DNA of 60,271 nucleotides from a virus. The stretch's first letter is position 1. Each line of letters starts with the position of its first letter. Location: positions 1 through 60,271 of IMG/VR virus record IMGVR_UViG_3300008261_000124. One strand, given 5' to 3'. The position numbers were made by a program, and so were the translations under genes. A model generated the notes under the pieces. That model saw only the letters and a list, made by a program, of their open reading frames with translations, made no database searches and was not told the DNA's origin. Positions 7,037 through 51,467 of this stretch are shown here, one piece after another.

Positions 7037-7874
7037 AAAGTCTATGCTTATTAGACCTTCTAACAGGTCAACAGACTTCATTAGTCCAAGCTTTGGACAT
7101 GGTTGCTTAGGTTTCAACTGTAGTTATTGTTATATGAAAAGACATAAACCTACAGGTTTAACAGTAGCCACTAACACAGAAGATATACTTACAGCTATTG
7201 ATCATCATTCTTGGTTTGCTGATGTAGAGAAACCTAATCAAACTCATGATGAATATATAAGCTACGACATCTCTTGCAATGAGGACCTAGCTTTACATTT
7301 AAAGTATCATGAGTGGAAAAAGATTTTTGACTTCTTTAAGAATCACCCAAAAGCTATGGGATCTTTTGCTACTAAGTATGTAAACAAAAAACTGCTTGAA
7401 TATAATCCAGAAGATAAAATTAGAATAAGATTTAGCTTAATGCCTCAAGTATATGCTGATCAGTTGGAACCTAATACTAGTAGTATAGAAGAAAGAATAA
7501 AAGCTATTGACCAGTTTATTGATGCTGGATATGATGTGCACATAAATTTCTCTCCTGTAATAGTTACTAAAAATTGGTTATTAGAGTATGAAGAGTTGTT
7601 TATTCAAGTTAATAGCTTTGTAAAGAATAAAGAAAAGATCAAAGCCGAGGTAATATTTCTTACTCACAATGAAGGTAAGCATCAGTATAATCTAGCCAAC
7701 AATCTACCAGGAGAAGATCTATTATGGAAGCCTGAGATACAAGAAGGTAAGATTTCACAGTATGGTGGAGAAAATATTAGATATAAACATGATCTCAAAG
7801 CTGAGTATATAAGACAGTGGACCGAACTACATGATAAGATACTCCCATGGAACACTATTCGGTATTGCTTTTAA
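7017..7874 (+). CDS. Radical SAM protein, spore photoproduct lyase/SplB-like
   Basis: Radical SAM enzymes bind a [4Fe-4S] cluster through three cysteines; the SplB family repairs UV thymine dimers or modifies nucleic acids. Near the N-terminus (residues 30-38) the protein has GCLGFNCSYCY, followed by MKRHKPTGL, a placement typical of SplB-like proteins. The spacing is CX4CX2C rather than the canonical CX3CX2C. The central SPVIVTKNW and DAGYDVHINFSPV segments resemble the barrel strands of that family. Length is 285 aa with the ATG at 7017; a GTG at 7014 is also possible. A DNA repair role is likely but unproven. Confidence 0.7.
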   Translation: MVEKVTRKSMLIRPSNRSTDFISPSFGHGCLGFNCSYCYMKRHKPTGLTVATNTEDILTAIDHHSWFADVEKPNQTHDEYISYDISCNEDLALHLKYHEWKKIFDFFKNHPKAMGSFATKYVNKKLLEYNPEDKIRIRFSLMPQVYADQLEPNTSSIEERIKAIDQFIDAGYDVHINFSPVIVTKNWLLEYEELFIQVNSFVKNKEKIKAEVIFLTHNEGKHQYNLANNLPGEDLLWKPEIQEGKISQYGGENIRYKHDLKAEYIRQWTELHDKILPWNTIRYCF

Positions 7875-23057: not shown

Positions 23058-23482
23058 TTTCTGATATTGTCATTGATGAAGATCAATATAAGAATTTACT
23101 GAACATGTTGAATTCTACAGAACAAGATGCTGTAGTAGCTTTAAATGTAATAAATAACTTAAAGGTTGATAAAAATCTTATACAAGTTTTATTTCTCAGA
23201 AAGGAATCAGCTTGTTCAAATGATTATTGGAATATACATTGTAGTAAGCATATAAAGTATCATAAAAATACAAGTGTAATAACAAACCCTAATTTAATTA
23301 CTTATGCTAATATATTTAAAATACTAAATCAATTTACATTTTCATCAAAGAAAGATAAAGAACAAGCTTTGATTTTTTATACTAAAAGATTAGAAAATTT
23401 TCTTATTAAAAATCTATTAGGTTTTGAGGATGTAATAGATAATTTTTCTATAAATGTAAAAATAAAAGATAATGACAAATAA
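23024..23482 (+). CDS. Protein with a helical repeat shared by two nearby genes
   Basis: The product is 152 residues. About residues 22-58 read YKNLLNMLNSTEQDAVVALNVINN, then LKVDKNLIQVLFL. This matches, in length and pattern, segments in the proteins at 27328 and 27812 (L..ML.S.d..n..A...i.n....k). The rest is basic and unrecognised. It overlaps the metallopeptidase gene by 11 bases, so it probably belongs to the MoxR-VWA unit. Confidence 0.55.
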   Translation: MDVKDTKNRRLVSDIVIDEDQYKNLLNMLNSTEQDAVVALNVINNLKVDKNLIQVLFLRKESACSNDYWNIHCSKHIKYHKNTSVITNPNLITYANIFKILNQFTFSSKKDKEQALIFYTKRLENFLIKNLLGFEDVIDNFSINVKIKDNDK

Positions 23483-24982
23483 AGCAGAACAATTAGCAAA
23501 AGCTAGTAAAGATTTAATGCTAAAAGAACCTTTCTATGGTTTGTTTCTTACAATGCTTAACAAACAATGGAGTGATAAAGTACCTACTGCTGGTGTTAGT
23601 AGACTAGGTATTAACTATCAACTTTATTTGAATGAAGAGTTTTGGGCAACATTAGATCCTAATAAGAGAATTGGTTTACTCAAGCATGAGCTCAATGTAA
23701 GGGTTCCTTATGCAGTAATGTATAAGTAAAATGTCTTAAATTGTCGGGAACTACCTTAGAGCTTTACACACCAAGCATATATAGTAATATAATATGTGGC
23801 CAGAATAATTACCTGGGTATGGTAAAAGAGGTGAAGATTGGTATATCCGCAGCCAAATTTCTTGGAAGTATACCAAGAAAGAGGTTCAACGACTACAATA
23901 GACCATCCTGTGAAGGATGAAGGTATAGTCTGATCTCATGTGAAAATATGAGTTAACATAAATGATTACACATAGGTTTCTTTCACATAACAGATTTTGA
24001 GCATCTTACAAATAAGATGATTGCTAATATAGCTTTTGATCTTGAGATAAATCAATTTATTGATAAAGACTCTTTACCAGAAGGTGGTATGACAATAGAC
24101 TTGTTTCCAGATCTTAAGTTAGAACCTAAAAAGGGTAGCAAGTATTATTATGACAAGTTATTAAATGCTGCTAACAATCCCGGTACTTGTAGTACTGTAG
24201 ATAAGATGATGCAAGCTGCTGGTGATGGAGAAGGTGAGATAGAAATTGATATAGATAAGCAAGGTAATGTAAAAGTAAAATTACCTAATCATGATACTTG
24301 GCAAGAGTTTGAAGATCTTGATGAAGCAACTAAGAAGTTGATTAAAACTCAAACAGAACATATCATAAAAGAAGTAGCTGATCAGGTTGTAAAATCTAGA
24401 GGTACAGTACCTGGTGAGTTTAAAGAAATACTAGAAAGACTAGAAGCTTTAGATCCTCCTAAGTTTAACTGGAGAGGATTCTTAAGAAGATTTGTTGGTG
24501 GTAATATTAGACACAATACTAGATTATCAAGACACAAACCTAATTTTAGATTTCAAGACAATCCTGGGTTAAAACATAAATATAAGAAAAATATTCTTGT
24601 TGCTGTAGATACTTCAGGTTCTGTACATACAGAAGAACTTAAGGAGTTCTTACATGAGATATATCATATACAAAGAAGTGGTACAGAAGTAACTATTGTT
24701 CAATGTGATAGTGCTATATCTCATATAGAGAAATTTGATCCTAAGAAGGAATTTAAAATAAAAGGTAGAGGAGGCACTAGCTTCCACCCGGTCACAGATT
24801 ATTATGACCAACATTTTAGAAAGTACAACTGTTTAATATACTTAACAGATGGGGAAGCACCAGCTCCTGATAAATGTAGAGGACCTGTATTATGGGTTAT
24901 CTCTAGTCAGTCCCAAGGACTAAATAAAGATTTAAAAGGTTTACAAATTCAATTACCAAAAGATTATGGCAACAGCAAATAA
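23472..24982 (+). CDS. VWA/HExxH putative metallopeptidase interrupted by a group I intron
   Basis: Exons 23472-23692 and 23965-24982 join to 412 codons. The junction falls between the second and third base of codon 74 and rebuilds HELLHIGFFH (residues 72-81), a zinc HExxH site that neither exon has alone. The C-terminal part is a von Willebrand A domain with the MIDAS motif DTSGS (289-293) and a GGTSF segment. This architecture resembles VWA-like putative metallopeptidases (DUF2201/VWA-like pair) that work with MoxR ATPases. The adjacent gene is such an ATPase. The intron-retained product ends after codon 85 with a wrong tail. Confidence 0.8.
23693..23964 (+). mobile_element. Group I intron (272 bases, no endonuclease gene)
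   Basis: Core elements are visible in order: P-like AATTGTCGGGAACTACC (about 23739-23755), Q-like CCGCAGCCAA (about 23848), R-like GGTTCAACGACTA (about 23883-23895) and S-like ATAGTCTGA (about 23923); ACTA/TAGT pairs form P7. The last exon base before it is T and the last intron base is G, as group I rules require. Removing it restores the reading frame and the HELLH motif. It lacks an endonuclease gene, so it may be immobile or mobilised in trans by the neighbouring one. Confidence 0.85.
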
Positions 24983-27326
24983 CAAAATTAGCATGAACTC
25001 TGAAGAGTTAAAATCATTATTAACATACATTCATAACAATAATAAAGTATTGTTAGAGAAGAACTTACCTGTACAGACTGTAAATGTAGAAGGTGAAGCA
25101 GGTGGTGGTAAGACTTCTACTATTCTTCAACTAGCTAATGAGTTAGGATTGGATATGATACGTAAGAACCTCGCGGAGCTTGAAGATGTGGCAGATCTTA
25201 TCGGGTTTCCGTGCAAGGAGCATGAGATGATTGGTAAAGACAACTCTGTTAGATGGGTTGTAGAAGGTACTATGCCTCAGTATATTCAAGCAGGTTATAA
25301 ACCAACCGGTGAAAAGAGAATGACACATGCTGCTCCAGATTGGGCACAGGGTAGAGTTGCTCCCGTTCTATTGTTATTAGATGATTATAGTCGTTAAATT
25401 AAATTTACTAGATTTTTATTATCTAGCACTAAAATTAGTATATTTGTAATAAATATTTATTATGAATAAACTATTTAATTCAAAATTAACAAGTTATAAA
25501 AATAAATCAGGTGTATATCTATTAAAGATAAAAGAAAATTATTATGTTGGTAGTTCTATTAATCTTATAAAGAGATTAGAAAGTCACAAAAGTAAATTAA
25601 AATTATTAAAACATGAAAATATATACATACAAAGATGTTTTAATAAGTATGGTAAAAAAGAATGTTTTTTCTCAATACTTGAATTTTGTGAACCGGATAT
25701 AAGACTGATAAAAGAACAATTTTGGATTAATACCTTAAATCCAAAACTAAATCTTAAACCAAATTGTTTAACTCAACAAAACTGTATTACTACTTCTAAA
25801 CCTGTATTTCAATATTCTCTTAATGGAGAATTTATTGCAGAATTTCCATCAGTCAGAGAAGCTGAAAGAATTCTTGGTATTTCAGGTATAGGAAATGTAG
25901 CTAGAAAAGTAAAATCTTATTTTAAATCTGTAGGAGGTTTTTTATGGGATTATGAAAAAAAAACAAATCTTAGTTATACAAATAACAGTAAGAAAGCTAA
26001 AATAAAAGCAGTTACTATGTATAATAAGGAAGGTATAAAGATTAAAAGTTTTGAATCAATAGCAGATGCAGCAAGATATATATTAAAACCAGAAGATAAT
26101 TTTGATGGTTTATGTGCATGTATATCGAGTGTAGCTAAAAATAAAGGTATTTTAGTAAAAGATAAATATAGATATTCTTATGATAATTTAGAATTTCTTA
26201 AACCTTTGGTACTTAAAAGAAATTATCCCATATTGCAATGTGATACATCAGGAAATATTATTAAAGAATGGGAATCAGCTATTATAGCTGCTGAATCTTT
26301 AAATATATCAACAGGTGCAATTAGATTAGCATTAAAAGGAAAAATAAAATTATGTAAGAATTCTATATGGAAAATCAAGATGTAGCGTCTATTAAAAAAT
26401 CCTGTGAATTGTCTGGAAAAGCATAGAAATATGCCAATCAGCAGCCAAGCTGTTTAGTAATAAACAGAAGGTTCAACGACTAGTGTATGGAATATAGTCT
26501 GAACTGCAAATATAAAAGACTAAATTGCAGAATCTAAGGATAAAGAGCCTTAGAGATAACAAAAATGGCATCAGAAAAGTTTATTCAAGCGACCATGACT
26601 CTCCTGGAAACACAATGTTATGGTAGCTGGTGTTTACCAAAAGGTTCATTAATTGTTCTTACCTCAAATCCTGATAATGGCAACTATTCTGTTAGTGCAT
26701 TGGATGGAGCTCAAAAGACTAGGGTTATTAATGTAAACTATAAGTTTGATGTTAATGTATGGGCAAGATATGCAGAGAAAACTGGTATTGATGGTCGTTG
26801 TGTAAACTTCTTGTTATTACACCCAGAGTTAATGGAAGGTGAGAATGTTAATGCTAGAACTGTAACTATGTTCTTTAATAGTTTAATGTCTATCAAGAAT
26901 TTTGCAGATGAGTTACCTCTTATTCAGCAGTTAGGTGAGGCATGTACTAATCCAGAGCTTACTACTTTGTTTACTACATTTATCAATAACAAGTTGGATA
27001 AGTTAGTTACTCCTAAAGATATGTTACTTCATGACAATGAATCTTATATTATAGGTGAACTAAACAGTTGTATTGGTAAAGATGGAAACTATCGTGCAGA
27101 TATTGCTAGTGTATTAGCAACAAGGTTGATTAACTTTACTTGTACTTATTCTGATAATAACTCAATAACTCAAAAGATTACTGACAGACTTATCAAATTC
27201 TCTACAGAAGATATATTTACTACTGACCTTAAATATATTATTGTAAAACAAATACTTAACTATAACAAGCAGAAGTTCCAAAAACTTATGCTTAATCCTG
27301 AAGTATTAAAGATGACTATGAAATAA
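24966..27326 (+). CDS. MoxR-type AAA+ ATPase interrupted by a group I intron
   Basis: Exons 24966-25394 and 26568-27326 join to a 395-residue protein. Walker A is GEAGGGKT (43-50). Exon 1 ends in VLLLLDDYSR, the Walker B strand, and exon 2 continues ASEKFIQATMTLLE. LIVLTSNPDNGNYSVSALD is the sensor segment. MoxR ATPases pair with VWA proteins as chaperones or maturation factors; the VWA partner is the preceding gene (17-base overlap). The insertion lies exactly after the Walker B aspartates, so unspliced RNA gives an inactive 143-residue product. Confidence 0.85.
25439..25446 (+). promoter_or_regulatory. TATATTTG box inside the intron
   Basis: A perfect -7-like element 15 bases before the endonuclease ATG (25462). 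A CTAGAT/ATCTAG hairpin lies just upstream. It may let the endonuclease be transcribed separately from the host gene. Confidence 0.4.
25462..26385 (+). CDS. Intron-encoded GIY-YIG homing endonuclease with NUMOD repeats
   Basis: The product is 307 residues. The GIY-YIG nuclease domain opens SGVYLLKIKENYYVGSSINLIKRLESH, with catalytic Arg in KRLESH and a Glu in KEQFWINTL. Three repeats of NUMOD1/HTH type follow, near residues 113-165, 193-250 and 253-306 (KPVFQYSLNGEFIAEFPS, KAVTMYNKEGIKIKSFES, YPILQCDTSGNIIKEWES), which recognise the target DNA. It would cut intronless MoxR alleles and spread the intron. Confidence 0.9.
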   Translation: MNKLFNSKLTSYKNKSGVYLLKIKENYYVGSSINLIKRLESHKSKLKLLKHENIYIQRCFNKYGKKECFFSILEFCEPDIRLIKEQFWINTLNPKLNLKPNCLTQQNCITTSKPVFQYSLNGEFIAEFPSVREAERILGISGIGNVARKVKSYFKSVGGFLWDYEKKTNLSYTNNSKKAKIKAVTMYNKEGIKIKSFESIADAARYILKPEDNFDGLCACISSVAKNKGILVKDKYRYSYDNLEFLKPLVLKRNYPILQCDTSGNIIKEWESAIIAAESLNISTGAIRLALKGKIKLCKNSIWKIKM

Positions 27327-31343: not shown

Positions 31344-32339
31344 ATGGATTGGCACAATATTCTTGATATGCCTATTCACCATACAACCAGTGTTACTACT
31401 CAAGAACAACTTGATACCGTGGTAACTTATTGTATTAATGATGTAAAGTCTACTAAACAAATTATGAATCTTAGCAAAGATCAAATTAATCTTAGAAAAG
31501 ATCTTACTAAAGAGTATGGTATTAATTTATTTAGTGCTTCAGAACCAAGAATATCTAAAGAGTTATTCTTAATGTTTCTAAGTCAAGAAACTGGAATAAA
31601 AAAGTACGACTTAAAAAATCTTAGAACTAGAAGAGATTATATAAAAGTATCAGATATAATACTACCTTATACTAAATTTAATCATCCAGCTTTTCAAAAT
31701 TTACTTTTAAACTTTAAAGGTTTAATAATAAATGCTAAAGATACTAAAGGAGGATTCAAATATAGTTTTAACTATAAAAATGTAAAAACTGATTTTGGTC
31801 TAGGCGGTGCTCATGGTTGTACAGCTTCTGGAGTATATGAAGCTAAAGATGGTATGATCATCATGAGTTCTGATGTCACCAGCTTTTATCCTAATCTAGC
31901 TATTAGAAACAAGTGGTCTCCTGCTCATTTACCTAAAGATATCTTTTGTGATAAGTATGAATGGTTCTTTGAGGAGAGAAAAAAATTACCCAAAAAAGAT
32001 CCTAAAAACTATGTTTATAAAATTATTCTTAATTCAACTTATGGTTTAAGTAATGATGAGAATAGCTTTCTATATGATCCAGAGTTTACCATGAGAATTA
32101 CTATCAATGGTCAATTAACTCTGATGATGCTGTATGAAATGTTATCTGAAGGTATACCAGGATCTATTCCTCTAATGCAAAATACAGACGGTGTAGAGAT
32201 GATGATACCTGAACAATACAAACAGAAGTATATGGAAATATGCTCAGAATGGGAAAAGATAACGCAGCTTAACCTAGAACATGATGAGTATAAGAAAATG
32301 GTGATTAAAGATGTTAATAACTATATAGGAATATATTAA
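31344..32339 (+). CDS. Family B DNA polymerase, palm fragment
   Basis: The frame is open from 31173; the first ATG is 31344. Exo III appears as TYCINDVKSTK (29-38). Polymerase motif A is DVTSFYPN (177-184), motif B is KIILNSTYGL (226-235) and motif C is MQNTDGVEMM (278-287), where the first Asp of the usual DTD is Asn. The gene ends KDVNNYIGIY and continues in the gene at 33013, cut by a GIY-YIG endonuclease gene. It should copy phage DNA together with its C-terminal part. Confidence 0.82.
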   Translation: MDWHNILDMPIHHTTSVTTQEQLDTVVTYCINDVKSTKQIMNLSKDQINLRKDLTKEYGINLFSASEPRISKELFLMFLSQETGIKKYDLKNLRTRRDYIKVSDIILPYTKFNHPAFQNLLLNFKGLIINAKDTKGGFKYSFNYKNVKTDFGLGGAHGCTASGVYEAKDGMIIMSSDVTSFYPNLAIRNKWSPAHLPKDIFCDKYEWFFEERKKLPKKDPKNYVYKIILNSTYGLSNDENSFLYDPEFTMRITINGQLTLMMLYEMLSEGIPGSIPLMQNTDGVEMMIPEQYKQKYMEICSEWEKITQLNLEHDEYKKMVIKDVNNYIGIY

Positions 32340-32383: not shown

Positions 32384-33016
32384 ATGAAAGCTGACATAAA
32401 ACATAAAAATCTATCTGGTATTTACATGATTAGAAACCTAATAAATAATAAAGTTTATATAGGTAAATCTTTAAATATATATGCTAGAATAATTGAGCAT
32501 ACTTATAAATTAAATAAAGGATTATCTGATAGTTCTCATTTACAAAGTTCATGGTTAAAACATGGTTCAAAAAACTTTGACTATTCAATATTAGAAATAA
32601 TTAAAGATACAGATGAAATTGCTAGAAGAGAATTATTTTGGATGCATGCTTTAAAAACTTTAGATAAAAATTATGGTTATAACTTAAGATCTGATAGTGA
32701 TTCTGAAATGATAGTTCATGAATCTACAAGAAAAAAAATATCTAATAGACTTAAGAAAGAATGGGCTAAAGGTATAAGAAAAGATCACGGAAAAAAACTT
32801 TCAGCTAATTGGAAAATAAATCCAGGTAGAGTTCAATTACAATCTAAAGTAATGTCTAAAGTATTAACTAAATATGAATATGTAATAAATGGTAGAAAGC
32901 TTAATTATAAAAGATTAAAAAGATGCGGTTTAAAAAATGTTATAGCAACTTTTTATAAACAAAATAGTAATAAAGTAATTTTTAAAGGTATAGTAATAGA
33001 AAGAATAAAAACATGA
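32384..33016 (+). CDS. GIY-YIG homing endonuclease inserted in the DNA polymerase gene
   Basis: The product is 210 residues. The nuclease domain begins SGIYMIRNLINNKVYIGKSLNIYARIIEH (GIY...YIG, Arg in YARIIEH), with a Glu in RRELFWMHAL. A NUMOD3-like basic segment follows (STRKKISNRLKKEWAKG, then KDHGKKLSANW). No group I core motifs (R/S) are found between 32340 and 33015. Its stop overlaps the next start in ATGA. It splits the polymerase much as MobE-type genes split T4-like phage genes. Confidence 0.88.
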   Translation: MKADIKHKNLSGIYMIRNLINNKVYIGKSLNIYARIIEHTYKLNKGLSDSSHLQSSWLKHGSKNFDYSILEIIKDTDEIARRELFWMHALKTLDKNYGYNLRSDSDSEMIVHESTRKKISNRLKKEWAKGIRKDHGKKLSANWKINPGRVQLQSKVMSKVLTKYEYVINGRKLNYKRLKRCGLKNVIATFYKQNSNKVIFKGIVIERIKT

Positions 33017-40871: not shown

Positions 40872-43800
40872 TTATAATTTACAATTAATTGTTTGATCTA
40901 CAAATTGTTCGACTGTTAAATCAAATGGTAGTTCATTATATTTATCAAGTATGCTCTCTAAGGTACCAACTTTTTTCTTTTGTTCATCAGTTAATTTATT
41001 ATAGATAGCTGTTATTTGTTTTATAGGATCACCAGTTTGTACTATAGGTTGAGTAGTGGATTTACTATAATTCTTTCTTAGTTCAGCTAAAGCAGCTTTA
41101 TTTATTCTATCTTCTAATAATCCTTTGGTTTCTCCTTCAGCTTGTTTAATAAAGTCATGACCTAATTCATGAAGAAGAACAAAAGTAAAAAATTCATCAA
41201 ATGATGTAAACTCATTTTCAGCAAGAGGTGTAGCAGAACTTTTATCATTTAATACTGCAGATTTAGTCCAAGCTTTTTCAGCATATTTTTGTTTCAAAAG
41301 TGAAATATTTAGTAAAATAGCATTACCAATGTTTCTTGCTCCTACAGGTTTATCTCTAGTTGATTCAATTTGTTGGAACAAAAGAGGTTTTTTTCTAAAA
41401 GTTTTTTGAGCTAAAGCTTTTTCTTCAGTAAAATATGGTTTACCTAGTTGAGTAGTAGTAAGTTTAGCTTGATCAAATATAGATGATAAGAACACAATAT
41501 TTTTACCACTATCCTCTAAAGACTTGATATTAGAAATAGCAGAATCAATATCAGTTTTAGCAGCATTGATTTGCTCAAAAGACATACCTGGAAATCTATA
41601 GTTCAAATCTGATAAAGAAGAAATAATGATAGAATCTAGATTGTTGTTTTTTACATCATAGATAAAATCACTTTTCTTTTCATAATCTTTAGCTAAATCT
41701 TTAAATGTTTGAGAGTTATCATCTAAAACATAAACATTACCTTTTACATTTGTTATAAATGGTAAGTTGTTTATATTCAATGCATTAGATTGTTTAAGAT
41801 TAATAACATCTTGCATATTCATTCTCCAGTTTACACCTCTATTTATTAAAGTAGAATTTTTAGAATTATATCTAGCTTTAAAAAATTCATTAAAACCGGC
41901 TAAAAATTTATCTGCATTATCACTATCTAATAATTTTTTTAGGTTATTGACAGCAACATCCATTATTCTATTATAGTTTCCATAAGGCATGATTGACATT
42001 AAGTTAAACTCACTTGGGTTCATACCTGATTGTAAGAAAGCATATAACGGTAACTTTTCAAAAAAGCTACTTATATAAGCATTATTTTGAGGACTGTTTG
42101 CTACTTTAATAAAACTAGGATCAGCAAGTTCACTCATTTGTCTTCTATAATCTTCTCTTTTCTTTTTACCATTCTCATCCCTAATATCTGTAACATCTGA
42201 TATATCAGTAAGAGTAAAGTTTAATATACCTTTATACTTTTGTTTTACATCATTAGGTACTACACTAGCTTTAAATTTAGATATAACAGAATACTTTTTA
42301 GCAAGAGCAGGGTTATCATTAATAATATTTATAAGTTCTTGAGCCACAGTATCTTTTCCAGATCTAAATAATTTGAATGTATTATAAATATTATTTAATG
42401 CTTTATTCTTTAAAATGTTTTCATAAGCATACTTCTTTAATCCGTCTTCTGTAGAAAATGCAGGATTATTAATATTTTTTAAAGCAGCATAAGATCTTTT
42501 ATAGCTAGTAGTATTAACCACAGAATCTATTGGATACATTCTTCTTAAATATTCTCTTTCTAAGCTAAACTCAACAAACTCTTCAAATGTAGCATCTTCA
42601 AAAGCAGCTAAAGGAACAGGATATAATCCTCTTTCTATATAGTTTTTAGCATATTCTTTATTATCATAATCATTTTTAAGTTGTTCAATGTTAACTAACT
42701 GATCTACAGGAATTTGTTTATACATTGTATCACCAGATCTGTAGTTTTTAAGAGTATTGATAAATACATACTGATATAAAGAATTTAAAAATCTTATTAC
42801 ATATTTTTCTTCATCTAAACCAGTAGCTTTTTCTATACTACTAAATAGTGTTCTATTTTCTACAGCATTAGTTAAAAAGTCAATTACCTTAGGATGATTT
42901 CTAGTAGGAAACAGTCTTCCAAACAATTCAATAGTAAAATCTTGAACTTGAAATGGTTTAAGAGCACCTCCATTAACAAGATTATTTACATCTTCTTGAG
43001 AAACAGTTTTAGAATCTTTTAATCTAGCTATAGCTCTTGATTTTATCTTAGCCTCAAACATGTTTGGTGAAGTAGTTGTATCAGGATTTAAAGTCATTTT
43101 TAATAAATCATAATCCTTCATCAATTCTTCAATAAGAAGATATTGTAAAAATCCAGCTTTTTGAGATTGATCAGCAAAATTAAGTCTGCTAGAAGCTATA
43201 CTTTTTAATTCATCTAATGTAAAAGCTCCTTTATGATAAAAATTTAAAGCATATTGTAAACCGTGTACATTATCTTTATTATTAGTATATTCAGCACTTG
43301 GTACATTTATAGATCTCATCATATATTTCTTAGCTAAATTTTTAGCATTAGACCCACTTGAATCATGATCTTTACCAAATACTAATTTAGATAGTGGAGA
43401 TTTATAACTATTTTCTAAAGAAACATATTCTCTAACCATAGGATTAGAAACAAAATATGCTATGTGTTCAAAAGGCACTCCTGCATCAACTAAAAACAAA
43501 ATTTTAGGTGTAACAGTAGGATTACCTTGCAAATAAGCTACCCATTCATCTTTATCAATATCAACAAATCCATTTAACAACTGAGAAATAATTTCAGCAA
43601 CACTGTTTTCATTATTATAATCTCTATCTTTAGATAAAGAAATAGCACCATCAGAAGTTTTATTATGCTTTAACTTTAAACCAATAGGAAAATCAACAAT
43701 TTTTTCTTCAATCACATTTTTACCAGCTTTAGTCCGAGTAAGTATTTTTATTACCACAGGCATTGACTTTTTAAGCTTAGTTCCATAAATACGGAATTGG

Positions 43801-46800
43801 TTACTATTAGTACCACCTACAGCAACAATACCTAGACCTTGACCACCAGCAATACTAGCTTGTTGTTTATCTGTATTAAAATCTTGCTCTAACATTCTGG
43901 TAGCACTAATTCCTTTTGGAGCATTTCTTTTACCAGTCATAATAGACTTTTCATAGTCTGTTTCATCATCTAGTTCTTGAACTAATGATTTTAATCCTTT
44001 TTGACCTGGAGCATCTTCAGTTATGTATTTAGTTAAATGAGTATCATTTGGTGTCAATAATACTTCGGCCATATCTGGTAAAGAAAGGACATCAGTTATA
44101 GCATCAATTAAATCATTCTCAATAACTTTAGAAAAGTTTCTTTTATGCTCTTTTGCTAAAGAAAGTTCTATAGCTGTTTTAGCTAAATCATTTTTTTCTT
44201 TATATAAATTAGATATAGTTTCTTCAACTTTATTTAACTCAGTAATATTAAAGTCTTTAAGTTTTTGATTGTATATTTTATATGCTTCAGGTATATTATT
44301 TTTAACAAAGTCCATTAGATTTTTATCAGAAAGATTTTCTAATAATTTTCTAGTATTTTTTTGAGTTAAAGAATTATACTGTTCTTTTCCTAAGTACTTA
44401 GTTTGAGCAACATCAGTTACAGCTTTTCTGAAATCACTAAGATCATCTTTAATAGTAGTCCAAGTAAGATTCTTTTTGTCTACTTCAGTTTTGATTTCAC
44501 CTTTAATAGCTTTAGCCCTAGCTTTATTAAAACTTTCTTCAAGCTTTTCTATATGAGCATCTAACTCCTCAACAGTATTAAAACTATCTTTAATTAAAGT
44601 ACCTCTGCTAGATATGTACTTAGAGTAAGAAGTGAGTTTATCCACGTCAAAGTCAGTACCTGATTTAGCAACAATTTCTGCAGGAATAATAATAATTGGA
44701 CCGGCAATAGGTGGTAAAAATCTTTGAACTTCAGCAAATTCTGCAGAGTTAGGTCCTTGTACTGGAATCCTAACACCTGTTATTCTAATTTTTAATCTGT
44801 TTTCATCTGTATTTAACCACTCATTGACATTGATCATTTCATTAAGCCTATTGAAACTTGCATCAAAGTCTAATTCTCTATCACCTTTTTCATTCTTTTT
44901 ATAAACAGCAATTATTTCTTTAGAATCTATATAATTACCTTTTTCATCTTTGGTAAAATATTTAGTAAAGAAAAGCTTTTGATAATCTTCATTTAAAGCA
45001 ATAGCTACACCCATACCTTTTGTGTCAACTTTACCATCAGGATCTACTACATAAGATCTTAAACCATTAGTTCCATAATTATTTAAGTCTTTTTCTGTAG
45101 GTTTTTTAAATTTTACATCTTGAAAAAATGCAGAAGATCCTTCAACTAATGGTTCACCATTTACTTTTAATCTTACTAATCTATTGTTGATAATAGATAC
45201 TAGATTTTTTTCTATTTGTGGAGCTAAAGGGTGGCTACTTAAATCAACTGTACCTTTTTCATTGCTTTGAATAAGATCAATTTCAGTTTTGCTGTAACCT
45301 TGTTTTTCTAATTCTTTTCTTATAAAACCTAGCATTACTTGAATATCACCTTCAAGTTTAACAGTTCCAGTTTTAGGATCAATTACTTCTTTAAATTTTA
45401 AATTTCTTAGTATTTCAGCCTTTTTAACTTTTACTATTCTATCAATAAGACTAAATACCTTGTCAGTTTTTTCTTTAAATATCTGTTTTTTAGGATCTCC
45501 TTCACTGTATAAACTAACATTAAATAGTTTACGTAACTGAGATGCTAAAGTAGATTCTCCTTTAAAATAACTATTTACTTTAGTTTGATTTTTAAGATAA
45601 GCAAGAAATATAGGATTTACAGTAAATGTAAAATTTTCTTTTAGTCTACTTGTATCATTTCCTTCATATATATCATCACCATTAAGATTTTCTGAGGATC
45701 TAATATGTGATTGTTTTGAACCTGATTCAAATGTGATATAATCAATACCTTGTTCAATCATTTTTAAATGAATGTCCTGTAGCACAGCTTTTTTATTTCC
45801 GTATTCAAGCATACTAGGAGTCAAAGGCATCAAACTAAACTTATGAATACTGTTTATTGGATATCTACCTGTAATAGCTAACGGACCGGCATAACCTAAT
45901 TTGTATACTGGAAATAAACCTTTTATCTCATCTGCAGATACTTGTTTACCTTTTATAACATCTTGATATGCAGCTTCTTGTTCAGGACTCCAATCTGATT
46001 CTAATTTTTTAAGAATTCTGTATGCATCAAAACTAACAAAACCTTGACCATCAGCATCTTTAATTTTAGCAAAAGGAGCCATCCTACCACCTGTAGGATT
46101 ACCGTTTTTATCTAAACCATCTGGTCCATATAATTCTTTTTTAATAGCAGCCTCGTCTGTAATACCTCTTCTTATCATTGACTTTCTGAACATATCTTCA
46201 TACATTTCATAATATGCAGATCTTACTTCAGATTCTTTTATGATAGCTGTATTAAATATACTAGTATGTTTTCTAATATCTTTTTTAGCTATTTTATTCT
46301 CATCCATTAATTTTTGCTCATACTCTCTTTTAGCATAAGTATTAGCATAATTATTAGCTAATGAACCTGTTGCAAAAATAGTACCTGGTGATTGGTAAGG
46401 AGCAATCCTTTTAGGACCTTCATTTTTAGCATGATTAAACTGAAAGTGATCTGTATGAATAATTGTTCCTACTTCAGCTTTGTATAACCAAGAGTTAATA
46501 GTATAAGATGAGAAAAATGCATTTTTAAGAAGTATATCAGAACTTTCACCTAAAGAATCTAACTGTGCTTTTTTTATTACTTTATTAGAAATAAATCTTT
46601 CTTTTAAAGCTTCTTTAATAGCTTCTGGTAATAATGCTTCTCCATTTCTTTGAAGTTTTGCAGATTTAACAGCTTTAACATATTGCTTTTCATATCTTTT
46701 CTTTAATCTAGAAAAATATTCAAGAACTTGTTTATTTAGTTCATCTCTTAATACTTCATTCTCATTTAGAGTAGTTATTAATCCTTTCTCAGCAACAGCA

Positions 46801-49800
46801 TTTAAAAATTCAGTAGTTGTTAATCTTTGTTTTAATGATTTTTCTTTATCAACATCTTGCTCTAAAACATCATCAAACATTGCAAATTGATCAGCTTTTT
46901 CAAAACCTTTATATGTTTTATAGTAAGTCGGATCATCTTTAACCATTTTTATTCTTTTGATTTCTGCTTCAAGTTTAGGATAAACCAGTTGTAATATTTT
47001 TGTATTAACATTGCCTTGGGTAATATAATCTCCTGAAGCATTTTTTAAGAATAACTCAGTATCTATAAACAAATGATTAGTCTTTTTACCATCATAAGTT
47101 TTTATTTCTTTTATTTTTACACCTAAATATGTTTTCTTTCCTGCAGCTCTTGTTGTACCTTCTTGAACACCATAAAACATCATACTAGTCATGTCAGTAA
47201 TAACTTTGTCTAGTTTGGTCATTTTACCATAAGGTACACCATTAGATTCAAAATCTTCAGTCACATATTTGCTACCATCAACATCAAATACCTCTATTGA
47301 GTTATCTTGATCTTTTGTTCCATCTGTTTTAAATAATGAGTTTAAAAAGATAGAAGCTTTTGCTTGAGGATTAAATTCTGGATTTAGATAATATAAATGA
47401 GCATAATCACCTAACAATGTATTATCAAACATATCACCTTTAAACATAACTTCATTAATAGAATTTATGATTTTAGTGTATGTACTGTTAAGAGCAGTTG
47501 TTGCTTTTAAATTATCAGAAGAAGCTCTTACCATACTGCCGGTATATTGATCTGAATACTGAGCCTCAAGACTAGCAATAGCATCAACTCTACCAACAGA
47601 TGAGTTATAATTTATATCTACAACCTGATTAAATCTATTTAATGATTTAAACTTGTGAAATCTACTTAAGAAATCTATTGGAGCTTCAATGTTTAGTTTA
47701 TTATATTCAGCAAGACCTATGGCTTGTGCTATATATTTTACATCTTCTTCTTGTAATGTTTGATTTATATCATAATTATTAGTTAGATATAATCCAATAC
47801 TATTTAAAAAAGGTATCCAGTTTTCTTTACTGTTTACTGTATAAGATAATAAACCATCAGCACCAAATGTTTCTACTAAAAAAGCTTTCTTAATAGCTGG
47901 TAAATTTAATTCATTAGCTTTTGTTTCAGTATTTACTTTGATATAAGGAGATGATGTTTCCTGAGCAAACTTAGATGGCCAATCTCTTCTTTTAATTTTA
48001 AAGTATTCTGCAGTAGTTTTACCTACTTTTATTTTCACAGATACTTCTCCATTTTCATCTCTATCTTCTACAAATTGTGTAGCTAAGATAGGCATGTTGT
48101 AAAGATTTAAAGATTGCCATAAACTAATCCACATATTAGCTGCATTTTCAGATGTAGACATTACTTCAGCAGGATTACCAACTTTGAGCAATAATTGATC
48201 AAAATATGGAGCAATCTTCATATCACGGGCTTTTATCATTTTATTATATAAGCCTGTCGGTGTTGTTTGACCACCTAATTTATTAGTTAATACTCTCCAT
48301 GTAGGAATAAAATCTACAGTTTCAGGAAATCCTAAAGCATTTTCTATATTAGAACCATCAGGGTTTTTTTTGAGTAAACTTTTAACAAGAAATAAAGTTT
48401 CATTTGTGGCTATATCTTCAGATTTTTTCTCATTAGGACCCTTGTTTGAGTAAGTTTCATCAGCTTCTGCTTTTTTAGAATCTAAATTATCTATTTCAAT
48501 ATCATAATCTTTTACTAAACCTAAATCTTTAAATGCAGAATTTTCTCTATGGAATGCAACAACAGAATTACCTTTTGCATTACCTTTTATTATTTCTGTT
48601 ATATCACCAAATATTTCTGATTTTAGAGCTCTACTTAAAATATCAATATTTCTTTTGTAAACATCTAAGAAAGGATCATTTTTATTTTCTTTATTTTTTT
48701 CTACATAAGCCATGTGTTGTTTAAGCTTATTTTGAAAAGCTGTTTTAACAACAACATTATAAATATGATCTTGATTTTTAGGACTTGTTATAGCTGTAAT
48801 AACATATCCATTAGCAATAACACCTTTTGCTTTTTGTTCTTGAATTACTCTATCTGTATATAAAGATATAATACCATCAATACTATTGCTTAACTCTATA
48901 GCTTCTTGATAGTTAAACAAAGGTGCCCCATCTTCTGCTATAATACCAGAGTTTAATCTTCCAAACTCAGCATTTTTAAGATTAGGAGCTATACGGCTTA
49001 TTTGATCTTGTGTCTTAGCTCTATACAAAGTATTGAACATTTCATTAAGAACAGTCTCAGAACCAGGATTAGAATATACAGTAGTTGCATCAGCACTACC
49101 AAAAAACTGTTTAAGTAAAGCCCAAATTCTATTAAAGATTTTACTTAGAATATTAGTTTTAGCATTTTTGGTTTTAAACTTACCATTATTTATAGCAAAT
49201 AATCTAAACTCTTCTGCTATAAATTCTTCTAGTAATAATCTGTCTTGAGGAAAGTTAGGGTTAAGATCACTAAACTTTACTGTTACTTTTTCAAAGTTGT
49301 TACCTCCTTGACCACCGGTTCCTTTAACTACTTCAAATGAACCATCAAGTTTAGAAACACTGTTATACAATCTATCTCTATCACCTTTTGATAAATATAA
49401 TTGACTAAATACATGCCATGCTTCATGATAACCATGAGTATAACTTGCTCCAGAAAACAATGTAACAGCTGCATTAGAAAACATACCAAATGCATCAGAA
49501 TTTACAATTGTTCTACTAAAGTCAGTTGTAATTAATGGTTTACCACTTTCATCAACAGCTTTAAATAAAGGGCTTTCTTCTAAAAACTTTTTAGCTCTTT
49601 CTTCTTGTTCAGCTGTTGTAGGTATGGTTTCTAAAAGTTTTGATCTGAATGCTGCAGAATTTATATCAAAGTCAATTCCTCCAAATAAATCAGGATTTTC
49701 ATCAACTTTTTCTATAGTTTCTTTAACTTCTTGTTCTACTTGTTTTTTCTCATTTATTCTTTTATATCCTAAATAAGAATTAACAATCATTGGTCTACCT

Positions 49801-51467
49801 TTTCTTCCTACAGTTTTATCCATAGCAACTCTAGGCATAATTCTTTGGAAAATAAAATCATAGTAATTTCTACTATCTTCAGTTATTTCACCAGTAGGTG
49901 TAACAGTGATCCATCTTAATTTATTATCATTGTAAGGTTTTTCCATAATAGTAAGGAAATTGTTACCAAAGAAACTTTTTAGAATTTCTCTAGCTTCTTC
50001 CTTATTATTTACAATATCTAATATTTTACCATTAACACTTAATACATCTTTAGTAAGAATAAATCCAGAGTTTTCTTCTATATGTAAAAACTGTTTTATA
50101 TAATCTAGTTTATCCATAGCTGATAAAGGAATACCTAAAAGCTTTGGATCATCAACTAAAACACTTACAATATTATTTAATACATCAGAATCAGTACTAA
50201 GTTTTTCAGGATTTTTTAAAGATACTCTTGAGTCTGAATCTTCAAATTTTATAGTAGGTAATACTATACTTTTATTACCTTTTACTATTGTAGTAAATTC
50301 AATACTTGCTTTTTCTACCGGTGTAAGATTAAACTCAGAAAGATAAGCTTGTGTTGCTTTTCTTTGAGCAGGAGTCATATCATTTGTATTTTTATAATAA
50401 CCAGTGCTACCACTGTTTATATCTAAAAGTACAGGTTCAGTATTAGTTTCTTCTACTATTTGTTTTACAAAATCTTCTTTTTCTTTATATAACTTATCTA
50501 TATAAGAAACTAAATCTTTAAACTTTTCAGTTTTAACAGCTTCTTTTTCTTCAGAAGTTAAACTTGTATCACTATCTACTATATTTGTTATTTCAGTTTG
50601 TTTTTCATTAAACAATCTGTCTTTAATGGATTGTTCTTCTTCTTTAGAAGAAGCTTTCATTAAAAAATGAACTATAGTACCATTACTTGCATCACCAAGA
50701 GTACCATCTTCTTTAAAGTAAAGAAAGTTACCTTTATTATCTACAAGAGCTAATACTACAAAATTTGTAGGTTGCTCATTCAAATAAAGATTTCTTTCAA
50801 GATTAGGTAATTGATTTTCTTTTATTGCCAGCAATCTAAACCCAGTATGTCCTTCATAAGTAACTTCTGTAAAGTCTGGTTGAAAATCTTTAACAGAACC
50901 TAATAATTTATTTACTACATTATGATGTAAATTTGCTTTAGGGTTTGTTTGATCTTGAGAAGGAATACCATTTACTCTAAGTAACTGTTGACCAATAGTT
51001 TTATTTATTTCACTTGGGAATAATAATCTATCAATAAAAAGTTCTTTTGCAGATGTAGTAGTTTCTATAGGAATAACTGAATCTTTAGGTTGATTAGCAA
51101 TCTCTTCTTCTATTTGTGATATAGGAATAGATATAATTTTTAATTCTTTAGCTAAAAGATCCAACCCATTTTGACTATTTACTTTTTGAATAAGATCTTT
51201 AATACCATCTAAATCTTTCCCGTCTAAACTCATCATGTCTAGATCAGGATTTATTTTAAACAAATTAGTCATTATTTGTGGTACATGATATGCCACACCT
51301 AAAGCCTGTACTTGATCTTTATTTTTACTATAAGCAGCATCATAAATTTCTTTTATAATACCCAGATAATTAAATGGTTTTGTCTTAATACCTTCCAGCA
51401 TTAAAACATTTACATATTCTTCTAAAGCTTTTTTTAAGTCTTTTTGTTGTTCAAGATTACAAACCAT
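40872..51467 (-). CDS. Giant virion-packaged RNA polymerase with two zinc-peptidase motifs
   Basis: The product is 3531 residues. DFDVD (2272-2276), followed by Lys, is the catalytic DxDxD of the crAss-like virion RNA polymerase; the first double-psi barrel may include TGRYPINSIHKF (about 1866-1877). Two HExxH sites flank the core: HEAWH (681-685), with a later LLEEFIAEEFR, and HELGHDF (3433-3439). Both look like zincin peptidase domains. The enzyme is thought to enter the cell with the DNA and read the early genes. The peptidases may process the polyprotein; that is inference. Confidence 0.85.
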   Translation of the reverse strand: MVCNLEQQKDLKKALEEYVNVLMLEGIKTKPFNYLGIIKEIYDAAYSKNKDQVQALGVAYHVPQIMTNLFKINPDLDMMSLDGKDLDGIKDLIQKVNSQNGLDLLAKELKIISIPISQIEEEIANQPKDSVIPIETTTSAKELFIDRLLFPSEINKTIGQQLLRVNGIPSQDQTNPKANLHHNVVNKLLGSVKDFQPDFTEVTYEGHTGFRLLAIKENQLPNLERNLYLNEQPTNFVVLALVDNKGNFLYFKEDGTLGDASNGTIVHFLMKASSKEEEQSIKDRLFNEKQTEITNIVDSDTSLTSEEKEAVKTEKFKDLVSYIDKLYKEKEDFVKQIVEETNTEPVLLDINSGSTGYYKNTNDMTPAQRKATQAYLSEFNLTPVEKASIEFTTIVKGNKSIVLPTIKFEDSDSRVSLKNPEKLSTDSDVLNNIVSVLVDDPKLLGIPLSAMDKLDYIKQFLHIEENSGFILTKDVLSVNGKILDIVNNKEEAREILKSFFGNNFLTIMEKPYNDNKLRWITVTPTGEITEDSRNYYDFIFQRIMPRVAMDKTVGRKGRPMIVNSYLGYKRINEKKQVEQEVKETIEKVDENPDLFGGIDFDINSAAFRSKLLETIPTTAEQEERAKKFLEESPLFKAVDESGKPLITTDFSRTIVNSDAFGMFSNAAVTLFSGASYTHGYHEAWHVFSQLYLSKGDRDRLYNSVSKLDGSFEVVKGTGGQGGNNFEKVTVKFSDLNPNFPQDRLLLEEFIAEEFRLFAINNGKFKTKNAKTNILSKIFNRIWALLKQFFGSADATTVYSNPGSETVLNEMFNTLYRAKTQDQISRIAPNLKNAEFGRLNSGIIAEDGAPLFNYQEAIELSNSIDGIISLYTDRVIQEQKAKGVIANGYVITAITSPKNQDHIYNVVVKTAFQNKLKQHMAYVEKNKENKNDPFLDVYKRNIDILSRALKSEIFGDITEIIKGNAKGNSVVAFHRENSAFKDLGLVKDYDIEIDNLDSKKAEADETYSNKGPNEKKSEDIATNETLFLVKSLLKKNPDGSNIENALGFPETVDFIPTWRVLTNKLGGQTTPTGLYNKMIKARDMKIAPYFDQLLLKVGNPAEVMSTSENAANMWISLWQSLNLYNMPILATQFVEDRDENGEVSVKIKVGKTTAEYFKIKRRDWPSKFAQETSSPYIKVNTETKANELNLPAIKKAFLVETFGADGLLSYTVNSKENWIPFLNSIGLYLTNNYDINQTLQEEDVKYIAQAIGLAEYNKLNIEAPIDFLSRFHKFKSLNRFNQVVDINYNSSVGRVDAIASLEAQYSDQYTGSMVRASSDNLKATTALNSTYTKIINSINEVMFKGDMFDNTLLGDYAHLYYLNPEFNPQAKASIFLNSLFKTDGTKDQDNSIEVFDVDGSKYVTEDFESNGVPYGKMTKLDKVITDMTSMMFYGVQEGTTRAAGKKTYLGVKIKEIKTYDGKKTNHLFIDTELFLKNASGDYITQGNVNTKILQLVYPKLEAEIKRIKMVKDDPTYYKTYKGFEKADQFAMFDDVLEQDVDKEKSLKQRLTTTEFLNAVAEKGLITTLNENEVLRDELNKQVLEYFSRLKKRYEKQYVKAVKSAKLQRNGEALLPEAIKEALKERFISNKVIKKAQLDSLGESSDILLKNAFFSSYTINSWLYKAEVGTIIHTDHFQFNHAKNEGPKRIAPYQSPGTIFATGSLANNYANTYAKREYEQKLMDENKIAKKDIRKHTSIFNTAIIKESEVRSAYYEMYEDMFRKSMIRRGITDEAAIKKELYGPDGLDKNGNPTGGRMAPFAKIKDADGQGFVSFDAYRILKKLESDWSPEQEAAYQDVIKGKQVSADEIKGLFPVYKLGYAGPLAITGRYPINSIHKFSLMPLTPSMLEYGNKKAVLQDIHLKMIEQGIDYITFESGSKQSHIRSSENLNGDDIYEGNDTSRLKENFTFTVNPIFLAYLKNQTKVNSYFKGESTLASQLRKLFNVSLYSEGDPKKQIFKEKTDKVFSLIDRIVKVKKAEILRNLKFKEVIDPKTGTVKLEGDIQVMLGFIRKELEKQGYSKTEIDLIQSNEKGTVDLSSHPLAPQIEKNLVSIINNRLVRLKVNGEPLVEGSSAFFQDVKFKKPTEKDLNNYGTNGLRSYVVDPDGKVDTKGMGVAIALNEDYQKLFFTKYFTKDEKGNYIDSKEIIAVYKKNEKGDRELDFDASFNRLNEMINVNEWLNTDENRLKIRITGVRIPVQGPNSAEFAEVQRFLPPIAGPIIIIPAEIVAKSGTDFDVDKLTSYSKYISSRGTLIKDSFNTVEELDAHIEKLEESFNKARAKAIKGEIKTEVDKKNLTWTTIKDDLSDFRKAVTDVAQTKYLGKEQYNSLTQKNTRKLLENLSDKNLMDFVKNNIPEAYKIYNQKLKDFNITELNKVEETISNLYKEKNDLAKTAIELSLAKEHKRNFSKVIENDLIDAITDVLSLPDMAEVLLTPNDTHLTKYITEDAPGQKGLKSLVQELDDETDYEKSIMTGKRNAPKGISATRMLEQDFNTDKQQASIAGGQGLGIVAVGGTNSNQFRIYGTKLKKSMPVVIKILTRTKAGKNVIEEKIVDFPIGLKLKHNKTSDGAISLSKDRDYNNENSVAEIISQLLNGFVDIDKDEWVAYLQGNPTVTPKILFLVDAGVPFEHIAYFVSNPMVREYVSLENSYKSPLSKLVFGKDHDSSGSNAKNLAKKYMMRSINVPSAEYTNNKDNVHGLQYALNFYHKGAFTLDELKSIASSRLNFADQSQKAGFLQYLLIEELMKDYDLLKMTLNPDTTTSPNMFEAKIKSRAIARLKDSKTVSQEDVNNLVNGGALKPFQVQDFTIELFGRLFPTRNHPKVIDFLTNAVENRTLFSSIEKATGLDEEKYVIRFLNSLYQYVFINTLKNYRSGDTMYKQIPVDQLVNIEQLKNDYDNKEYAKNYIERGLYPVPLAAFEDATFEEFVEFSLEREYLRRMYPIDSVVNTTSYKRSYAALKNINNPAFSTEDGLKKYAYENILKNKALNNIYNTFKLFRSGKDTVAQELINIINDNPALAKKYSVISKFKASVVPNDVKQKYKGILNFTLTDISDVTDIRDENGKKKREDYRRQMSELADPSFIKVANSPQNNAYISSFFEKLPLYAFLQSGMNPSEFNLMSIMPYGNYNRIMDVAVNNLKKLLDSDNADKFLAGFNEFFKARYNSKNSTLINRGVNWRMNMQDVINLKQSNALNINNLPFITNVKGNVYVLDDNSQTFKDLAKDYEKKSDFIYDVKNNNLDSIIISSLSDLNYRFPGMSFEQINAAKTDIDSAISNIKSLEDSGKNIVFLSSIFDQAKLTTTQLGKPYFTEEKALAQKTFRKKPLLFQQIESTRDKPVGARNIGNAILLNISLLKQKYAEKAWTKSAVLNDKSSATPLAENEFTSFDEFFTFVLLHELGHDFIKQAEGETKGLLEDRINKAALAELRKNYSKSTTQPIVQTGDPIKQITAIYNKLTDEQKKKVGTLESILDKYNELPFDLTVEQFVDQTINCKL

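Follow-up and report, generated by a model that had tools for sequence, protein, structure and literature searches.

The group I introns of phages include those in the td, nrdB and nrdD genes of phage T4. These T4-type introns also interrupt conserved genes for enzymes at codons of critical function, and some copies have a working endonuclease and others do not (PMC2988022). The sequences targeted by homing often code for residues critical to protein function, where imprecise loss of the intron is lethal (PMC2988022, PMC3984707). Intron-rich crAss-like phages harbour group I introns in genes of the replication core, among them those for an AAA ATPase and PolB; in the accessible text of that report, a DUF2201 metallopeptidase-VWA gene is not named among the intron hosts (PMC7886860).

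The sequence analysed in this study was a stretch of 60,271 nucleotides of viral DNA (IMG/VR record IMGVR_UViG_3300008261_000124, positions 1 to 60,271; hereafter the window), in which a metallopeptidase-VWA gene is interrupted by a 272-nt insert. With the T4 introns and other phage group I introns, this insert shares the self-splicing core, the 5' U.G pair and the terminal G, and its family likewise includes copies with and without an endonuclease (PMC2988022). It differs from the T4-type introns in its host gene and in the endonuclease of its family, which is of the LAGLIDADG type and not GIY-YIG or HNH, and its splicing is predicted from sequence. The introns of Enterococcus phage iF6, Vibrio phage JA-1 and Staphylococcus phage PALS_1 have cores 70-78% identical to that of the window over 118-173 nt. 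Unlike the window intron, that of iF6 adjoins a class III ribonucleotide reductase gene and has an endonuclease, and that of JA-1 adjoins an HNH homing endonuclease. In the collection of papers searched, none described an intron in the zinc motif of a phage metalloprotease.

The window encodes DnaB, a primase, a helicase, PolB and Thy1, a gene set like that reported for crAss-like phages in the accessible part of the source (PMC7886860). It also contains, on the minus strand (40872-51467), a 3531-aa ORF that contains DFDVD, a motif of the crAss-like phage RNA polymerase. These features suggest that the window may derive from a crAss-like phage; none of the Crassvirales markers TerL, MCP and portal was identified in it. 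A GIY-YIG ORF (32384-33016) comes after a fragment of DNA polymerase B, the end of which is at 32339, and is probably part of another intron. An unusual cargo for a phage, at 7014-7874, matches spore photoproduct lyase, a radical SAM DNA repair enzyme.

Results

Intron borders and predicted spliced product

The original prediction was of a group I intron within the zinc-site codons of a metallopeptidase, whose removal would rebuild HELLH and join both exons in frame. Removal of 23693-23964 in silico gave a single open frame of 412 aa, containing LLKHELLHIGFFH, in which the protein junction reads KHELLHIGFFH. The predicted ligated-exon junction is CATGAGCT-ATTACAC. The proposed borders of the T|...G type proved exact to the base, with T as the final base of exon 1 and G as the final base of the intron, and no alternative register gave the same mRNA. 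The intron does lie inside HELLH, but the insertion codon is that of Leu74 within HExxH, split CT|A, and not a zinc-ligand codon. The claim that unspliced RNA could not make the active site was borne out: the intron has stops in all three frames, and the unspliced RNA is read for 85 codons before a stop, giving a product of 85 aa that lacks the zinc site. As weak evidence on an independent start at ATG 24017, no clear ribosome-binding site was visible there. The coordinates of all features are given in Table 1.

Table 1. Coordinates of the interrupted genes, intron elements and further introns (positions in the window unless a locus is named)
Feature	Position	Strand	Remarks
Exon 1, DUF2201_N metallopeptidase / DUF2201 VWA protein	23472..23692	+	221 nt; codons 1-73 and CT of codon 74
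P1, exon side GAGCU	23688..23692	+	Ends with U of the U.G splice-site pair; GAGCT in 20/20 distinct intron-bearing alleles
ORF-less group I intron	23693..23964	+	272 nt; RF00028 (71.6 bits), same-site homologues, covariation
P1, internal guide sequence GGUUC	23702..23706	+	Pairs with GAGCU in 20/20 introns
P2 hairpin, CUUAUGCA-GUAA-UGUAUAAG	23707..23726	+	Three pairs with compensatory changes
P6a hairpin, UUUCUUGG-aaguaua-CCAAGAAA	23858..23880	+	7-nt loop is the position of the LAGLIDADG gene in relatives
P7, 5' strand GACUA	23891..23895	+	RF00028 match, alignment of introns
P8 hairpin, AUCCU-GUGA-AGGAU	23905..23918	+	RF00028 match, alignment of introns
P7, 3' strand UAGUC	23926..23930	+	RF00028 match, alignment of introns
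P9 hairpin	23935..23952	+	RF00028 match, alignment of introns
Terminal guanosine (omega-G)	23964..23964	+	All same-site introns whose 3' end was located end in G; built into the search, as the pattern locating 3' ends required a preceding G
Exon 2	23965..24982	+	1018 nt; A of codon 74, L75-H76, remaining metallopeptidase domain, VWA domain
Partner AAA ATPase (MoxR-like), exon 1	24966..25394	+	Ends directly after the Walker-B-like LLLLDDYSR
Second intron, in ATPase gene	25395..26567	+	1173 nt; GIY-YIG/NUMOD1 ORF 25462-26385
Partner AAA ATPase, exon 2	26568..27326	+	phrog_1297 match
MIDAS-threonine-site intron	L009 3082-4029		LAGLIDADG ORF inside
MIDAS-threonine-site intron	L112 about 3796-4764		Coordinates in gene orientation
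Intron between D99 and M100-E101	L100 about 3234-4316		Coordinates in gene orientation

Group I identity and RNA structure

In a restricted Infernal search, the full RF00028 model (1-253) matched 23683-23952 with 71.6 bits (E 2.4e-18; gathering score 50 bits), and a search of the record itself agreed. This was the only significant RNA match of the insert. A scan of the whole window against Rfam at the gathering threshold missed the intron, which probably reflects the faster filters and not its absence. The core P3-P9 scored above the gathering score, and both the U.G pair at the 5' site and the terminal G were present.

In an alignment of 20 distinct introns, the 53 pairs of P1-P9 were 94% standard, and 15 of them had changes on both sides, with compensatory changes in P2, P3, P5, P6a, P8 and P9. 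When the pairing partners were slid by 1-3 columns as a control, pairing was 32-45% and the number of compensated pairs was 0-6. P1, P4, P6 and P7 had no compensatory change among the 20 introns, being conserved and too invariant for a covariation test; the third pair of P1 is G-U in the window and some other introns, and G-C in the rest. Folding of the single sequence against shuffles gave only a modest z-score (-2.4), and the case therefore rests on the covariance model and the homologues. These sequence data confirmed 23693-23964 as a group I intron, which would be spliced out of the transcript.

Empty and occupied sites in related phages

Three relatives (L003, L004 and L015; 79-81% amino acid identity) read through the junction with the gene uninterrupted at the intron site, which shows that the arrangement in the window is not due to chance, and 87 of 98 loci, a set that includes repeat contigs, matched as one uninterrupted stretch. 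Three other loci (L013, L014 and L016) had an insert of about 1.1 kb exactly at residue 74. Rfam gave no group I match for these three, probably because the core is broken by an endonuclease gene, and their introns were recognised by alignment instead.

Viral contigs were scanned with a degenerate pattern combining the exon end and the guide sequence (IGS GGGNTCC required). In 33 of the 34 contigs matching the pattern, the metallopeptidase-VWA gene was interrupted at the same nucleotide; these 33 include repeat contigs of the same allele, and 20 distinct intron cores remain. Applied to the genomes of bacteria and archaea, the same pattern found 93 stretches; 80 of these were retrieved, and none encoded a metallopeptidase-VWA protein. 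GAGCT was present in 20 of 20 sites with the intron and in 27 of 63 without (Fisher p 1e-6), a comparison that carries little weight, as the search pattern biases it and the GGGNTCC requirement partly builds in the association. The predicted intron, its borders and the rebuilt metallopeptidase are supported by Infernal, the intronless relatives, the same-site homologues and the covariation.

Where both ends were readable, the same-site introns were 1087-1115 nt long, except those of the window (272 nt), L041 (303 nt) and L113 (296 nt). A LAGLIDADG_3 ORF was found in both of the long inserts tested (L013 and L016), and the extra sequence of the long introns sits between the P6a arms, where the window has its 7-nt loop. 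No endonuclease gene is present within the 272 nt of the window intron, which holds no ORF.

Two side observations were made in these loci. Compared with L014, L016 has one C inserted at the start of exon 2 and lacks one C about 15 nt later, which changes HELLH to HELLP; in other respects the two do not differ. The change is likely a sequencing or assembly error. A tmRNA is located at 28-303 of L011, a viral contig, near a relative of the metallopeptidase gene.

Intron history

The core of the window intron is 89% identical to those of L106 and L112, whose host genes encode proteins with only about 50% identity to that of the window. It is 72% identical to the core of L026, the nearest intron-bearing relative (73% protein identity). 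In the exon tree, the window, L026 and L123 formed a clade with full support. This clade was rejected by the intron data (p-AU 7e-149), and the intron grouping was rejected by the exon data (p-AU 5e-43). A looser clade of five rows on the intron tree had not been rejected in an AU test (p 0.135), and the exon-defined clade was tested afterwards. The rejection of the exon-tree clade by the intron data shows that the intron has moved horizontally.

On the intron tree, the presence of the endonuclease underwent at least three state changes, the short copies being those of the window, L041 and L113. The loop of L041 retains similarity to the leader of the endonuclease gene, and the sequence of this copy suggests that the endonuclease was deleted. 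Many related phages carry the same mobile, selfish intron at this site; the copy in the window is a form of it that lacks the endonuclease.

Host protein and partner ATPase

The spliced protein matched PF13203 (DUF2201_N, putative metallopeptidase; 60.2 bits) and PF09967 (VWA-like; 67.8 bits), both well over the respective cut-offs. The separate halves scored 18.5 and 21.8 bits for DUF2201_N, both under the cut-off, compared with 60.2 for the joined protein. H72, E73, H76, H81, D99, E101, T345, D369 and the MIDAS residues D289/S291/S293 were invariant in 37 relatives. In an AlphaFold model (pLDDT 90.9), HELLH is part of a helix predicted with confidence (63-78), and the helix that follows (91-103) contains D99/E101. 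By structure comparison, the VWA part matched solved VWA domains (Z about 11). The N domain had weak structural matches (Z only about 5), the best being the metallopeptidases selecase, BlaR1 and BepA (Foldseek, VIA-align), and no convincing relative came from a PDB sequence search with this domain. PHROG 1314 and many GenBank phage records call the same protein 'HNH endonuclease'; Pfam finds no such domain and shows DUF2201, a point to watch in the annotation of DUF2201 metallopeptidase-VWA proteins.

Together with the adjoining AAA ATPase, the protein, a putative MoxR co-chaperone, looks like the MoxR-vWA-metallopeptidase pair of jumbo phages, which has the same domain fusion, with an N-terminal metallopeptidase, and the same kind of neighbouring ATPase; the accessible text of that source does not mention an intron, whereas both genes are interrupted in the window (PMC7824862). 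The second intron, in the ATPase gene, had a partial RF00028 match (26397-26541; 41 bits, below the cut-off). Intronless relatives read SR-A[TS]EK straight through this site, and inserts of about 1.0-1.1 kb were present there in L009, L023, L041, L061 and L063. In L004, L015, L029, L030, L031, L036 and L038, the ATPase gene is interrupted elsewhere, around residues 77 and 88-143. Further introns were also found in the metallopeptidase gene: in L009 and L112 (and in L132 by sequence), an intron lies directly 5' of the MIDAS threonine codon (GRGG|T), and that of L100 is next to E101. The intron sites of the two genes fit the rule of critical residues, in a purely descriptive sense given the few sites compared.

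Discussion

The best explanation for this locus, with a probability of roughly 94%, is homing into a conserved site, with horizontal arrival of the intron and predicted splicing. After transcription, the RNA would fold into the group I core and the end of exon 1 would pair with the guide sequence. Two transesterification steps, initiated by guanosine, would then release the intron and ligate the exons, from which the normal HELLH enzyme would be made. The element came from a different lineage of phages, through homing or recombination, and the endonuclease was presumably lost from the P6a loop, before or after arrival. The HExxH codons would be the position at which the homing endonuclease of this intron family, which presumably cleaves the homing site, inserts the element. 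Such a position is accounted for because phage introns and homing endonucleases are known to occupy conserved critical codons (PMC2988022, PMC3984707).

A second explanation is that splicing serves as a regulatory switch that delays or tunes the protease, for instance through GTP level, the passage of ribosomes or temperature, and that the intron is kept for this reason. The truncated product of the unspliced RNA, which lacks the zinc site, is compatible with this, as are the persistence of the intron without its endonuclease and the view of phage introns as a 'molecular on-switch' (PMC11878797). However, unspliced RNA would be non-functional for any intron in a coding gene, and such a switch is dispensable, as close relatives lack the intron. 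The presence of the intron is patchy and was acquired horizontally, the majority of same-site copies belong to the long, endonuclease-sized class, and the preference of the homing site already explains the position. Control of the enzyme by splicing is possible, but it is unsupported and not needed, and was considered very improbable. The same low probability applies to a broader form, in which splicing of the HELLH, E101-adjacent, MIDAS-threonine and Walker B introns, whose unrelated sites are at metal- or nucleotide-binding codons of one phage machine, would jointly gate the assembly of an active protease-chaperone in the course of infection, as a domesticated sensor of timing or energy.

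It was judged even less probable that the gene is broken, the interruption inactivating the protease and the two ORFs being remnants or separate proteins. An ORF list does give two separate frames, but this is a mechanical listing; the group I core is intact, the repair is exact at the level of single bases, the exons are conserved to the last codon at 79-81% identity to intronless alleles, and the same arrangement with open exons recurs in many phage contigs. Nothing supported the reading of the insert as a group II intron, intein or chimeric assembly, the probability of which is negligible: RF00028 was the sole significant RNA match, the stops in all three frames exclude an intein, and the homologous introns at the same base in independent contigs show that the insert is not an assembly join.

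The intron interpreted here as a product of homing is genuine, has well-defined limits and is of an ordinary kind, and its added value is a large same-site family with three allele states. For annotation, gene callers will split the metallopeptidase gene in phage genomes with such introns. The site is available empty, with an intron carrying the endonuclease and with an intron lacking it, and this provides a clean natural series in which the gain of introns, the loss of their endonucleases and the co-conversion of exons could be measured. The family is a lineage of group I introns widespread among uncultivated phages, with the active-site motif of a protease as its homing site.
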